A stretch of DNA of 64,000 nucleotides from Pseudooceanicola nanhaiensis DSM 18065 (GTDB taxonomy: Bacteria; Pseudomonadota; Alphaproteobacteria; Rhodobacterales; Rhodobacteraceae): positions 1,148,288 through 1,212,287 of the forward strand of contig NZ_JHZF01000011.1 in assembly GCF_000688295.1 (NCBI RefSeq). Reading direction: 5' to 3'. The position numbers were made by a program, and so were the translations under genes. The notes beneath the pieces are model-generated. The model searched no databases, was not told where the DNA came from, and was given only the letters and a program-made list of their open reading frames with translations. Below are positions 8,281-49,961 of the stretch, piece after piece (the first letter of the stretch is position 1; each line of letters begins with the position of its first letter).

Positions 8281-9420
8281 ATGATGCTCGATCTCGACTA
8301 CCCGACCCTCGCCGACCTGCGCGCCCGCGCCAAGCGTCGCCTTCCCCACTTCGCCTGGGAATACCTCGACAGCGGCACCGGCGACGACCGGGCGCTGCGC
8401 CGCTCGCGCGAGGCGCTGGACGAGGTCATCCTCGCGCCGCAGGTGCTCGCCGGCCGCCCGGTCCCGGATCTCTCGACCAGCTTCCTCGGGCGGCGCTATG
8501 CGAAACCCTTCGGCGTCTCTCCCGTCGGCATGACCGGGCTCTTCTGGCCCGGCGCCGAGGTGACGCTCGCGAAGAACGCGGTGAAGGACGGCCTGCCCTT
8601 CGGCCTCTCCACCGTCGCCGCGGCCTCGGTCGAGGATCTCGCCCCGCATGTCGGCGACAACGGCTGGTTCCAGCTCTATCCTCCGGCCGTGCCCGAACAT
8701 TGCGAGGACCTGCTGAAGCGCGCGAAGGCCGCGGGCTTCCACACGCTGATCCTCACCGTCGACGTCCCCGGCCCCTCGCGGCGCGAACGCCAGCGCCGCG
8801 GCGGGCTGCGCACCCCGCCCTCGATCACGCCGCGGCTCTTCTTCCAGTCCGTCCTGCGCCCGCACTGGGCCCTTGCGGTGGCAAGGGCCGGCACCCCCAC
8901 GGTCCGGGGTCTCGCCAAGTATCATTCCGACAACGAACCCGCCCGCCACGTCGGCCTCGCGCCCCATGCCGCGCCCGACTGGGACATGCTCAAACGCCTC
9001 CGTGACCTCTGGGACGGCCCCATCGTCGCCAAGGGCGTCCTCGTCCCCGCCGAGGCCAAGGCGCTGCAGGAGGCCGGGATCGACGCGATCTGGGTCTCGA
9101 ACCACGGCGGCCGGCAGTTCGACGGCGGGCCCGGCGCGGCGACCGCCCTGCCCCTCGTGCGGGCCGCGGTCGGCCCCGATTTCCCGCTGATCTATGACGG
9201 CGCCACGGAATCGGGCCTCGACATCCTGCGCGCCATCGCGCTCGGCGCCGACATGGTGATGCTCGGCCGCGCCTGGCTCTGGGGCGTCGCCGCCTTCGGC
9301 GCCGAGGGCGCGGCGCATGTGACGCATATCCTGACCGAGGACATGACCTCCGGCATGATCCAGATGGGCGTCACCCGGCCCGCAGAGGTCCGCACCCGGC
9401 TCTGGGACAACCTCGTATAG
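8281..9420 (+). CDS. FMN-dependent alpha-hydroxyacid dehydrogenase/oxidase (L-lactate dehydrogenase-like)
   Basis: 379-residue TIM-barrel flavoprotein of the LldD/glycolate oxidase/mandelate dehydrogenase family, oxidising an L-2-hydroxyacid to the 2-oxoacid. Motifs: FAWEYLDSGTGDD near 24-36, FGVSPVGMTG (77-86), GWFQLYPP, a flavin-contacting Lys251 in AKGVLVP, and the catalytic signature SNHGGRQFDGGP with His275 and Arg278. Length fits LldD. An internal segment with many basic residues (RRERQRRGGLR) may give membrane contact. Lactate is the likeliest substrate but is not proven. A conserved structured 3' element starts 11 bases after the stop. Confidence 0.88.
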   Translation: MMLDLDYPTLADLRARAKRRLPHFAWEYLDSGTGDDRALRRSREALDEVILAPQVLAGRPVPDLSTSFLGRRYAKPFGVSPVGMTGLFWPGAEVTLAKNAVKDGLPFGLSTVAAASVEDLAPHVGDNGWFQLYPPAVPEHCEDLLKRAKAAGFHTLILTVDVPGPSRRERQRRGGLRTPPSITPRLFFQSVLRPHWALAVARAGTPTVRGLAKYHSDNEPARHVGLAPHAAPDWDMLKRLRDLWDGPIVAKGVLVPAEAKALQEAGIDAIWVSNHGGRQFDGGPGAATALPLVRAAVGPDFPLIYDGATESGLDILRAIALGADMVMLGRAWLWGVAAFGAEGAAHVTHILTEDMTSGMIQMGVTRPAEVRTRLWDNLV

Positions 9421-9431
9421 ACCCGGCCCTG

Positions 9432-9504
9432 CTTCCTCTTGCCGGAAGTATCCTCGGGGGGTGAATTGGCCGTCAGGCCAAGAGGGGGGCAGACAGCCCC
9501 CCTC
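9432..9504 (+). repeat. structured 3'-end repeat, copy 1 (terminator-like)
   Basis: Starts 11 bases after the dehydrogenase stop, in sense. Order: CTTCCTCTTG box, TATCCTCGGGGGG box, hairpin A (TTGGCC-GTCA-GGCCAA, 9466-9481) and hairpin B (GAGGGGGGC-AGACA-GCCCCCCTC, 9482-9504). Related copies are at 29947-30002 (+) and 49082-49150 (-), each directly after a stop codon in the sense direction. Confidence 0.8.
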
Positions 9505-28312: not shown

Positions 28313-29932
28313 ATGTCCCGATCCGCCCCCGACACGCGCCTGGCCACACACGAGGTCACGAACCAGCCCGAACCGCGCCGCAGCCGCGACGCCTGGGCCG
28401 AGGACGCAGCTCTGCGCGACGCCGCCGCCCGCGCCGGAGCGGACAGCCATGCCCTCGCCGCGGCCGGGGCCGCCTTCGGCACGGAAGAGGCCCTTGCCCT
28501 GGCCGAGGATGCCCGCCGCGACCGGCCCCGCCTCGTGACCCACGACCGCACCGGGCGGCGCCTCGACGAGGTCCGCTTCAACGACGGCTATCACGCCTGC
28601 ATGGCGCTCGGGATCGCGCACGGCTATGCCGCCGTCGCGTGGGAGGGGCAGCCGGGCGGCCACGCGACCCATGCGGCGCTCGTCTACATGCTCAGCCAGC
28701 TCGAACCCGGCACCTGCTGTCCGCTGACGATGACCTACGCGGGCCACCCCGCCCTCGCCGCCGCGCCCGACATGGCCGCGCCCTGGCAGCCGAAGCTCGC
28801 CTCCCGCAGCTACGACCCCCGCCTCCTGCCGGTGGCCGAGAAGCGCGGGGCGACGCTCGGCATGGCGATGACCGAGAAACAGGGCGGATCGGACGTGCGC
28901 GCCAATGCGACCCGCGCGCTGCGCGACGGCGATCACTACCGGCTGACCGGCCACAAGTGGTTCTGTTCCGCGCCGATGTCCGACGGTTTCCTGACGCTCG
29001 CGCAGGCGCCCGAGGGGCTGACCTGCTTCCTCGTGCCGCGCTGGCTCGAGGGCACCCGCAACGTGTTCCGGCTGCAGCGGCTGAAGGACAAGCTCGGCAA
29101 CCACGCCAATGCCTCCTCCGAGGTCGAGTTCGCCGACACCCTCGCGATCCGGCTGGGTGACGAGGGCGCGGGCGTGCGCACGATCATCGAGATGGTGCAT
29201 CACACCCGCCTCGACACGGCGCTTGCCCCCGCGGGGCTGATGCGCGCGGCCCTCTCCGAGGCGCGTTGGTGGGCCGCGGGGCGCACGGCCTTCCAGCGCC
29301 GCCTGATCGACCAGCCGCTGATGCGCGCGGTGCTCGCCGACCTCGCGCTCGACTGGGAAGGCGCTCTGGCCCTCGGCATGGCCGCCGCCCGCGCCTTCGA
29401 CGGCACGGGGCCCGCGGACCGGGCGCTGGCCCGGATCGCGGTGGCGCTGGCGAAGTTCCTCAACAACAAGCTCTGCCCGCTCGTCACCGTCGAGGCGATG
29501 GAGGTGCTGGGCGGCATGGGCTATGTCGAGGAGACGCCGATGCCCATGCTCTACCGCGAGGCACCCCTGAACGGCATCTGGGAGGGCTCGGGCAACGTGA
29601 TCTGCCTCGATATCCTGCGCACCCTGCACCGCGCGCCCGACAGCGCCGAGGCCCTGACCGCGGCCCTCATGTCCGCAACGGGCAGCGACCGCCATTACGA
29701 CGCCGCGCTGAAGGCCCATGTCACCCGCTGGCCCGGCGCCCCGGAGGAGGCCGAGGCCCGCTGGTTCGCCGAGAGCCTCGCGCGCCTGCTGGCCGCCGCC
29801 GAACTCATCCGCCACGCGCCCCCCGCGGTCGCCGACGCCTATGCCGCGACCCGTCTCACGGCGGAGCGCGGCCGCCTCACCGGCGCCATCCCCGCCGCCG
29901 ACCACACGGCGATCCTGGAGCGTATCGCCTGA
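28313..29932 (+). CDS. aidB: acyl-CoA dehydrogenase family protein, AidB-like
   Basis: 539 residues, equal to AidB length. The flavin-binding signature AMTEKQGGSDVRANATRA and the preceding RSYDPRLLPVAEKRGATLG are typical of AidB (isovaleryl-CoA dehydrogenase-like flavoprotein of the adaptive alkylation response), as is the long C-terminal helical part with LGGMGYVEETPMPMLYREAP. In E. coli AidB binds DNA and FAD; its substrate is unclear. ATG at 28313 has AGGAGG at 28301-28306. Divergent from ftsB. A structured 3' repeat starts 15 bases after the stop. Confidence 0.82.
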   Translation: MSRSAPDTRLATHEVTNQPEPRRSRDAWAEDAALRDAAARAGADSHALAAAGAAFGTEEALALAEDARRDRPRLVTHDRTGRRLDEVRFNDGYHACMALGIAHGYAAVAWEGQPGGHATHAALVYMLSQLEPGTCCPLTMTYAGHPALAAAPDMAAPWQPKLASRSYDPRLLPVAEKRGATLGMAMTEKQGGSDVRANATRALRDGDHYRLTGHKWFCSAPMSDGFLTLAQAPEGLTCFLVPRWLEGTRNVFRLQRLKDKLGNHANASSEVEFADTLAIRLGDEGAGVRTIIEMVHHTRLDTALAPAGLMRAALSEARWWAAGRTAFQRRLIDQPLMRAVLADLALDWEGALALGMAAARAFDGTGPADRALARIAVALAKFLNNKLCPLVTVEAMEVLGGMGYVEETPMPMLYREAPLNGIWEGSGNVICLDILRTLHRAPDSAEALTAALMSATGSDRHYDAALKAHVTRWPGAPEEAEARWFAESLARLLAAAELIRHAPPAVADAYAATRLTAERGRLTGAIPAADHTAILERIA

Positions 29933-29946
29933 ACCAGGTTCCCCTG

Positions 29947-30002
29947 CTTCCTCTTGCCATAAATATCCTGGGGGGAGCTCGAGGGGGGCAAAGCCCCCCT
30001 CG
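29947..30002 (+). repeat. structured 3'-end repeat, copy 2
   Basis: CTTCCTCTTG box, TATCCTGGGGGG box and hairpin B (CGAGGGGGGC-AAA-GCCCCCCTCG). The middle GGCC hairpin found in the other two copies is absent. It starts 15 bases after the aidB stop in sense. Confidence 0.8.
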
Positions 30003-30022
30003 TCAGCAAGAATAGATAGCGT

Positions 30023-30043
30023 GCGCGGGCCGCAGGCCCGCGC
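30023..30043 (-). terminator. stem-loop after aldolase gene
   Basis: Perfect nine-base arms GCGCGGGCC and GGCCCGCGC around a 3-base loop, 20 bases beyond the aldolase stop. The minus-strand continuation is AT-rich but lacks a clean T-run. Confidence 0.45.
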
Positions 30044-30063
30044 TCCGCTGGATCAGACCCGGC

Positions 30064-49081: not shown

Positions 49082-49150
49082 GAGGGGGGCTGTCTGCCCC
49101 CCGCTGGCCTGACGGCCAGCTCCCCCCGAGGATACATGGACCAGAGGAAG
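49082..49150 (-). repeat. structured 3'-end repeat, copy 3
   Basis: On the minus strand: CTTCCTCT box, TATCCTCGGGGGG box, hairpin A (CTGGCC-GTCA-GGCCAG) and hairpin B (GGGGGGC-AGACA-GCCCCCC). It starts seven bases after the stop of the crotonase at 49158 in sense. Hairpin A keeps its pairing where the outer T-A of copy 1 is changed to C-G. Confidence 0.8.
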
Positions 49151-49157
49151 GTGGGGC

Positions 49158-49961
49158 TCAGGCGCCCGTGAAGCGGGGTTTGCGCTTTTCCATGAAGGCG
49201 TGGCGGCCTTCGGCGTAATCGGCGCTGTTCATCGCATCGGTCGAGAGCTGGCGCAGGCGGTCGAGGTCACGGTCGGCCTCGTTCCGGGCCAGTTCGCGGA
49301 GCGCCTGCTTGGAGCCCTGGATCGAGAGCGGCGCGTTCTCGGCGATGGCGCGGGCATGGGTCAGGACGGTGGCGTCGAGCGCGTCGATCTCGGTCACCTC
49401 CTCGATGAGCCCCATCCGGAGCGCCTCGGCCGCCTTGTAGCGGAAGCCGGTGAAGAGGATCTTCTTCGCGTTGCCGGGCCCCACGAGGTCGGAGAGCGCG
49501 CGGATCCCGTCGAACGGGTAGACGATGGAGAGCCGCGCGGCGGGAATGCCGAATTCGGCATCCGCGGCGGCGATGCGGAAATCGGCCGCCATCGCCACGG
49601 CAAGTCCGCCGCCGATGCAATAGCCGCGGATCTTGGCGATCAGCGGCTTGTCGAGGGTGGCGAGGAGATGGCGGGCATGGCCCGCGATGCGGTTGTACTC
49701 CGCCGAAGCCTCGGCATTGCCGCGATGCGTCTCGAACTGGGAGATGTCGGCGCCCGAGACGAAGGCCCGCTCGCCCGCGCCCTGCATCACCACCACCCGC
49801 ACCTCGGGATCGGCGGCGAAGAGCTCCAGCACCTCGCCCATGGCCTGCCACATCTCGAGGCTCATGGCATTGCGCTTCTCGGGCTGGTTGAAGGTCAGCC
49901 AGCCGATGCCCTCGCCCTTCCCGGCGATGATCTTCGGCGTGCTGGTCTCGAGCGTCTGCAT
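49158..49961 (-). CDS. enoyl-CoA hydratase/isomerase family protein (crotonase) 2
   Basis: 267 residues of the crotonase fold. Oxyanion-hole parts FVSGADISQ and RGYCIGGGLAVAMAADFRIA are present. At the first catalytic glutamate site the sequence reads FGIPAARLSIVYPFDG, with Ala where hydratases have Glu, so simple hydratase activity is doubtful; isomerase, lyase or a shifted acid/base is possible. 14 bases downstream of the CoA transferase gene in the same operon. Confidence 0.85.
   Translation of the reverse strand: MQTLETSTPKIIAGKGEGIGWLTFNQPEKRNAMSLEMWQAMGEVLELFAADPEVRVVVMQGAGERAFVSGADISQFETHRGNAEASAEYNRIAGHARHLLATLDKPLIAKIRGYCIGGGLAVAMAADFRIAAADAEFGIPAARLSIVYPFDGIRALSDLVGPGNAKKILFTGFRYKAAEALRMGLIEEVTEIDALDATVLTHARAIAENAPLSIQGSKQALRELARNEADRDLDRLRQLSTDAMNSADYAEGRHAFMEKRKPRFTGA

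Follow-up and report, generated by a model that had tools for sequence, protein, structure and literature searches.

A gene-end repeat family of Rhodobacteraceae with the comparative signature of a putative strand-specific triple-helix pseudoknot

In this study, we found that a family of short repeats, three copies of which lie in the window (the whole 64,000-nucleotide stretch of DNA analysed here), is likely to represent a selected, strand-specific triple-helix pseudoknot placed at gene ends, a reading supported by comparison of natural variants. Each element consists, in order, of a pyrimidine-rich box, the core AAATATCC (or AAATACTC), one to three bases designated X, a first run of G (G-run 1), a turn or spacer hairpin, a second run of G (G-run 2), an apical loop and a run of C. 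Two couplings carry the argument, the complementarity of X to the apical loop and the mirror relation between the two G-runs. An earlier inspection of the DNA (the sequence-only reading) had proposed a structured repeat family under selection near gene ends, with covariation, for which the genome and family counts speak; taken as a whole it was partly supported, and it missed the main feature, namely the pseudoknot made with the loop and the mirror coupling of the two G-runs.

The positions given earlier for the three copies were borne out by the window sequence, two copies being on the + strand and one on the - strand (Table 1). By our own gene calls they begin 11, 14 and 7 bases past the stop codon (copies 1, 2 and 3, respectively), within the range of 7-15 bases that had been claimed. 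All three share CTTCCTCT, TATCCT(C/G)GGGGGG and the terminal GGGGGG/CCCCCC hairpin, as described before, and the reported covariation is also real: a T-A pair in the middle hairpin of copy 1 is C-G in copy 3, while copy 2 is devoid of that hairpin. A search of the window alone for TATCCNNGGGGG with one mismatch gave 3 occurrences against 4.87 expected, which is not above chance, so the proof of a repeat rests on the genome-wide count. By eye, a further hairpin repeat, whose arms read GTGCGC or GCGC and which often ends near TGGATCAG, is present 3' of the element at window positions 30009-30060; the same repeat follows elements L001, L006, L010, L019, L031, L039, L045 and L061, mostly of the T type.

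Table 1. Repeat copies, their proposed parts and the preceding genes in the window
Feature	Positions	Strand	Description	Basis
Copy 1, whole element	9432..9504	+	X=TC, loop CAGACAG, middle hairpin present	
Copy 1, pyrimidine-rich box	9432..9443	+	CTTCCTCTTGCC	family profile positions -17..-6
Copy 1, core	9446..9453	+	AAGTATCC; family consensus AAATATCC	
Copy 1, X	9454..9455	+	TC; proposed partner loop GA at 9492-9493	family covariation
Copy 1, G-run 1	9456..9461	+	proposed third strand	mirror coupling and length match
Copy 1, middle (spacer) hairpin	9466..9481	+	TTGGCC-GTCA-GGCCAA	
Copy 1, terminal hairpin	9484..9502	+	G-run 2 9484-9489, loop CAGACAG 9490-9496, C-run 9497-9502	
Copy 2, whole element	29947..30002	+	X=T, loop CAAAG, without middle hairpin	
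Copy 2, X	29969..29969	+	T; proposed partner loop A 29991	
Copy 2, G-run 1	29970..29975	+		
Copy 2, terminal hairpin	29983..29999	+	GGGGGG-CAAAG-CCCCCC	
Copy 3, whole element	49082..49150	-	X=TC, loop CAGACAG, middle hairpin present	
Copy 3, X	49128..49129	-	TC (GA on + strand)	
Copy 3, G-run 1	49122..49127	-		
Copy 3, middle hairpin	49103..49120	-	GCTGGCC-GTCA-GGCCAGC	
Copy 3, terminal hairpin	49084..49102	-	GGGGGG-CAGACAG-CCCCCC	
Gene before copy 1	8281..9420	+	FMN-dependent dehydrogenase (lactate-dehydrogenase-like)	Pfam PF01070, E 6.4e-116
Gene before copy 2	28313..29932	+	AidB-like acyl-CoA dehydrogenase	Pfam PF18158 and PF00441
Gene before copy 3	49158..49961	-	enoyl-CoA hydratase/isomerase	Pfam PF00378

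The looser pattern TATCCYNGGGGG occurs at 67 places in the 4.66 Mb genome of the organism (20 contigs), as opposed to none for the reversed pattern, and each of the 67 was inspected; a paired-box pattern finds 11 copies there. Counting by eye in 864 kb sampled blind to repeats (the window and forty 20-kb stretches) gave 22 elements, which extrapolates to about 119 per genome; five of the 22 bear the second core AAATACTC, and the X:loop pairing is kept in all of them by eye, in a scan that detects just those copies having the hairpin and G-run 1. The last hairpin was unparsed in 4 of the 62 distinct copies of this genome. A profile of 355 family elements, from a set enriched for rare-X and A-bearing types through targeted searches, opens with a pyrimidine-rich box of 12 nt, in which G is frequent at three positions; then come two free bases, AAA (95, 87 and 86%) and TATCC. 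A hairpin between CUUCCUC of the 5' box and GGGGGG, suggested by RNAalifold, was rejected as not conserved: many relatives carry other 5' boxes, and these could pair with G solely via G-U wobble. With Rfam covariance models, the elements stayed unmatched both in the window, at the gathering threshold, and in 11 loci searched with E values up to 5.

The supposition that similar elements are frequent in roseobacter relatives proved well founded, as AAATATCCYSGGGGG was present in 44 of the 80 sampled Rhodobacteraceae genomes, that of the organism itself included. A stricter two-box pattern was absent from 140 genomes of other alphaproteobacterial families, and from one other member of Rhodobacteraceae that was drawn. 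Among the matches listed from named genomes (80 of at least 119 matching stretches), the titles are all Rhodobacteraceae, Rhodobacterales, Paracoccaceae or their genera (Ruegeria, Paracoccus, Cereibacter, Gemmobacter, Thioclava, Roseovarius and others), except for one 'Proteobacteria' and one 'Alphaproteobacteria' bin. Two features of the surroundings were noted by eye. Other hairpins (CGACGGGC..GCCCGGCGCAA or CCGGGCTCGATGCCCGG) directly follow elements L017, L070, L020, L036, L038, L066 and L073, as if these were composite, and sequences like GGAAAGCAGG or GGGATATTTTC..CCAAAG stand just upstream of L026, L039, L048, L057 and L083 as head-to-head remnants resembling the reverse complement of the 5' part of the element.

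The first coupling is already visible within a single genome, where the dinucleotide after TATCC tracks the loop type in 58 of 58 parsed copies (TC 30, TG 8, CG 20) and the 5' box varies independently of either. To offset these dominant types, rare X were searched for in 394 genomes of the family, 99 of which had a match; the 60 places fetched, together with earlier loci, made 90 distinct elements that were read. Rare X face correspondingly rare loops: AC is found with CAGTCAG, AT with CAATCAG, CC with CAGGCAG or CGGGCAG, and GC with CCGCCAG or CGGCAAG, and of the elements with CT one faces CGAGCAG and four others have short loops that do not fit. For two-base X with a canonical loop of at least 6 (81 elements, counted after 25 without a canonical long loop had been dropped, 13 of these having a short loop outside the rule), the X1:L4 pair is A-T in 10 of 12, C-G in 12 of 12, G-C in 9 of 13 and T-A in 44 of 44 cases, and both X:loop pairs are Watson-Crick in 74. 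The 75 X1:L4 pairs observed compare with at most 46 in shuffles; when TC types are left out, 32 of 38 compare with 21. Single-base X behaves in the same way (T-A 11/11, C-G 42/44), and the three-base X of L277, TGC, lies opposite GCA. Exceptions amount to 7 of 81 two-base and 2 of 55 single-base elements, besides one T/CAGACAG and one AA/CAGCG.

For a covariation test, those 15 of the 33 short-spacer elements were used that agree in geometry, with runs of 6-6-6 and a spacer of 3 nt. The covariation score, like the proportion of paired cells, lay above all 500 shuffles and above each slid control, and two of the five measures did not go beyond shuffles (20 and 102 of 500). Comparison shows X to vary as a pairing partner of the apical loop, an arrangement that would constitute a pseudoknot.

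The second coupling concerns the bases that interrupt the G-runs. If G-run 1 has an initial A and follows a single base, a mirrored A:T stem pair is found next to the loop end in 20 of 27 elements, and where it starts with GA, the stem A is one place in, in 8 of 12 hairpins. Those mirrored A's are carried by 0 and 1, respectively, of the 264 stems that accompany an all-G run 1, 263 of which are all-G themselves (Fisher 2e-25 for A and 6e-12 for GA). Elements without the hairpin were left out of this count (2 in the A class, 8 in the GA class, 6 in the all-G class and 1 in the class with A after YC), and 7 of the 8 such matches of the GA class resemble chance matches in coding sequence. AAATATCC(C/T)GAGGGG was also seen by eye within apparently one conserved coding sequence of several genera (L195, L197, L200, L209, L225, L228), and these occurrences are a source of hairpin-less matches. 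An A that comes after YC is mirrored in no more than 2 of 35 elements, which means that it must lie outside the triplex. A TC-A subtype (L198, L202, L207, L208, L242, L244), with loops CAGAATG or CGCGAGCG, was observed to keep GA opposite TC and to leave the A unmirrored; the triplex probably does not include this extra A. Elements L232 and L233 display both couplings at once, having T followed by GAGGGGG, with GGGGGAG-CAAAG or CAACG-CTCCCCC.

In addition, the length of G-run 1 equals that of the stem in 221 of 272 elements, compared with a mean of 126 and a maximum of 154 in shuffles. Mirror symmetry differs from both direct and inverted repetition, and it is the arrangement that an antiparallel purine third strand needs. 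In class I triplexes a reverse-Hoogsteen purine run, a purine run and a pyrimidine run follow each other on one strand, as stated in the text of PMC4666352. The elements have the purine, purine, pyrimidine order on one strand, and their putative third strand mirrors the purine strand, the elements with A after YC excepted. Loop pairing, mirror coupling and length match, all derived from the comparison of variants, together make up the signature expected of an intrastrand purine triple helix of class I that a pseudoknot locks in place.

The genomic distribution of the elements was determined for 278 of them. In the genome of the organism, 36 are convergent, 22 antisense in tandem pairs, 15 sense in tandem pairs, 1 divergent and 1 inside a predicted gene; the corresponding numbers for other genomes are 64, 48, 41, 6 and 6, with 38 unclassed. 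Tandem gene pairs (126 of the 278 elements) contain 56 sense and 70 antisense copies, so the statement that the repeats are always in sense holds for the three copies of the window and fails for the family, and the sense-orientation bias on which the sequence-only reading had staked itself is absent. Divergent regions account for 7 of the 233 classed intergenic copies and convergent ones for 100, whereas the 52 junctions of the window itself are 31 tandem, 11 convergent and 10 divergent. In the partial subset formed by L100-L390 and the window there were 30 sense, 41 antisense, 58 convergent, 7 divergent and 36 unclassed copies; earlier partial counts of 41 sense and 48 antisense, from slightly overlapping sets, are superseded by the 278-element recount. 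Genes were called with a home-made codon model with position-specific start, and Pfam matches were obtained for 8 of 8 proteins of the window and for 19 of 20 encoded next to antisense copies, gene strands being confirmed in this way in 10 of 18 antisense cases of the organism's genome. Real antisense cases include L027, between yicC and rpsB, and L040, beside lon. As judged by this comparison of gene calls, the copies stay at gene ends, seldom lie in divergent regions and show no preference for the sense strand.

At the junction occupied by copy 1, reading of orthologous regions revealed an element in G000, in G004 (with a different middle hairpin) and in G008 (X=C), and, by eye, a variant with another core in G014. 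No element was found in the stretch read in G002, G005, G006, G007, G010, G018, G019 and G020; the eight orthologues of the copy 1 gene that go without the element are at least 59% identical, and six keep the following gene in the same direction. One relative lacking the element there, L250, has an ordinary hairpin and then TTT (by eye). The flanks of the elements (in the window and L271-L390) are peculiar in that the element strand is C-rich nearby, the pooled GC skew over the nearest 250 bases being -0.083 on the upstream and -0.068 on the downstream side, with 92 of 114 flanks negative at -750..-250. This skew is seen in all main gene-orientation classes (sense, antisense and convergent), and it decays to roughly zero past 2.5-4 kb in the upstream and 1.6 kb in the downstream direction. 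Orientation with respect to the replicating strand, hinted at by 3-kb flanks, was rejected, because the regional skew agrees in no more than 31 of 51 cases; this count and the fading within 2-4 kb indicate that the flank skew is local and not linked to the replichore.

Which strand folds can be deduced from the middle hairpins, whose sequence varies with pairing kept. In 132 hairpins, 864 of 889 pairs are Watson-Crick, and the remainder comprises 20 G.T, 1 A.C and 4 others; 12 of the 20 G.T pairs occur in one recurrent arm pair (AGTC..GGC) and are therefore not independent. Copies antisense to both neighbours contribute 6 G.T and no A.C, and a second set of middle hairpins gave 3 G.T, no A.C and 5 others. 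Since G.T prevails over A.C also in antisense copies, the comparison shows that the same strand is the folding one, whatever the direction of the genes. GNA triloops, which form unusually stable mini-hairpins in DNA and may occur in RNA as well, cap 22 of 54 middle hairpins in the organism's genome (21 of 54 at 6 bp or more) and 97 of 237 over all genomes. In other hairpins of the same genome, GNA loops are found in none of the 41 that have a T-tail and in 4 of 300 further intergenic ones; UNCG loops were seen in none of the middle hairpins examined. Purine-motif triplexes are stated to be unable to form in RNA, according to the text of PMC4666352. The lack of orientation bias, the GNA triloops and this reported exclusion make us lean to single-stranded DNA, and we favour folded DNA over an RNA terminator as the working material. 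The classical terminator reading, put forward earlier as one option, is not supported: a T-run after the last hairpin is absent on average (T at most 25% at +2..+20 in 355 elements), although single copies such as L004 and L219 do have one, and with the sense bias missing too, a simple intrinsic terminator was rejected.

On these grounds we propose, at a level of confidence at which belief and doubt are balanced, that the element is a class I purine-motif intrastrand triplex in single-stranded DNA, with a pseudoknot clamp, acting as a block or boundary at gene ends. G-run 2 and the C-run would form the hairpin, and G-run 1, connected to it by a short turn or the spacer hairpin, would run antiparallel along it as the third strand, in G*G-C and occasionally A*A-T triads. 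By pairing with bases of the apical loop, the 1-3 bases in front of G-run 1 would make a pseudoknot that locks the fold. Such a fold may arise whenever transcription or replication exposes the strand, and it would operate with either gene orientation, as a structural block or as a protein-recognised site between transcription units. The G-runs could also form quadruplexes.

Alternatively, the transcript might fold likewise and end or protect mRNAs, or, in antisense copies, antisense or convergent transcripts. We consider such an RNA 3'-end element unlikely, while giving it serious weight. The closeness to stop codons would equally suit RNA, the scarcity of copies in divergent regions relative to convergent ones agrees with it, the hairpin with TTT of L250 occupies the equivalent place at the copy 1 junction, and the conserved single-stranded boxes resemble a binding site. 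Rho prefers C-rich RNA, and the C-richness upstream on the element strand resembles Rho-loading RNA. The missing average T-run, the 70 of 126 tandem copies antisense to both neighbours, the absence of GNA loops from T-tailed hairpins of the same genome and the reported exclusion of purine-motif triplexes from RNA (PMC4666352, text) nevertheless argue in the other direction. Mobility as single-stranded DNA, in which an enzyme would recognise the folded strand and move the repeat as at REP or IS200/IS605 ends, seems improbable to us. It would account for the patchy presence at the copy 1 junction within one genus, for both orientations and for the identity of L017 and L070 over about 85-90 bases; yet the Y1 transposase domain PF01797 was found in 0 of 22 genomes of the genus (E up to 0.001; the control matched in 5 of 14), and the divergence of middle hairpins with pairing kept, together with 22 of 22 unselected copies being intact, suggests selection in place. 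Identity with REP/RAYT was rejected on the same absence of a Y1 (HUH) transposase.

Two further explanations were considered. Descent of subfamilies could by itself link the variants of X, loop and G-run with no direct contact between them, and the dominance of a few X/loop combinations (TC/CAGACAG, C/CTGG, T/CAAAG) speaks for it. We find this very improbable, because all four types of Watson-Crick pair have come up, in different genera, because neither the 5' box nor the spacer arms between X and loop follow the subtype, and because single changes arrive with the matching partner (TT/CAAACAG, AT/CAATCAG). A double-stranded site for a protein reading both G-runs would explain the strong conservation of the boxes, but it predicts neither mirror-image runs nor complementarity of X to the loop, and its probability appears to us smaller still.

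Several known systems resemble the proposed triplex in part. SAM-II riboswitch and telomerase RNA are H-type pseudoknots in which a loop strand lies along the groove of the second stem, in U.A-U and C+.G-C triples; the present element would share their topology and the loop strand running along the second stem's groove, and would differ in its G.G-C and A.A-T(U) triples, proposed to be antiparallel. REP/BIME sequences, which are associated with RAYT transposases, are intergenic hairpin repeats that occur in either orientation and fold as single strands. Our elements are like them in these three respects and unlike REP/RAYT in that no Y1 transposase was found in the genus and that a pseudoknot and mirror runs are present. 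With intrinsic terminators they have in common a G+C hairpin near stop codons, whereas the average T-run and the sense bias are missing and a third strand is added; neither a U-run after the hairpin nor a sense position to the preceding gene was the rule.

The closest relatives are the BoxC/PIT/TM-ECO repeats (Holder et al. 2015, PMC4666352), which, as described there, are likewise short, G/C-rich, intergenic and present in many copies, with purine-motif mirror symmetry in one strand and no bias of strand orientation. TM-ECO, however, belongs to class II (C-run, G-run, G-run, with 9-nt stems and loops of 3-6 nt; PMC4666352, text), while the present family is of the class I order (G-run, G-run, C-run), mostly with runs of 5-6 nt. 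The present family is further distinguished by the X:loop clamp, the pyrimidine-rich box, AAATATCC and, often, the spacer hairpin, and the text of PMC4666352 places TM-ECO more often upstream than downstream of ORFs, in contrast to the gene-end location seen here. The elements do not match the consensus CCCTCNCCC-loop-GGGNGAGGG-NNN-GGGNGAGGG, from which they differ in order and sequence. The ITxF search settings (stem 6-15 nt, loops 1-6 nt) do not fit them either, as many stems have 5 nt and most spacers exceed 6 nt; judged by the settings alone, short-spacer copies with 6-nt stems would satisfy them. According to the same text (PMC4666352), a stable triplex was not seen by in vivo footprinting of the E. 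coli repeats, and for BoxC/PIT/TM-ECO no regulatory function was found and a link to genome instability was reported. Covariation, compensation, a pseudoknot and six names of Rhodobacterales are not mentioned in the main text of PMC4666352. Among the titles listed from the open-licence literature we found no earlier description of this repeat family, and no paper on an intrastrand triplex in Rhodobacter.

The kind of element is known already, as an intrastrand triplex repeat, from whose known examples this family departs in its class, clamp, boxes and location and in the comparative evidence for the third strand. In the literature searched, no earlier case was found of compensatory mirror changes in a third strand together with four-way covariation of a clamp. 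Potential triplex repeats of bacteria have been catalogued, their function and formation in cells being unproven according to the text of PMC4666352. We tentatively suggest, from the pattern of natural variants, that a natural triple-helix pseudoknot may have been found with comparative evidence for selection of the triplex itself, distributed over dozens of genera of one family as a general gene-end device. Natural variation amounts here to a double-mutant experiment many times repeated, and the clamp suggests a way for as few as 5-6 triads to stay folded. Were RNA to adopt the fold, the result would be an RNA triplex of the purine motif, held impossible in the literature. Intact copies number from tens to about a hundred per genome, which makes the cellular role of triplexes directly testable, including whether DNA or RNA folds. 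In the biology of these bacteria, the fold may block or mark the passage between transcription units once its strand is exposed.
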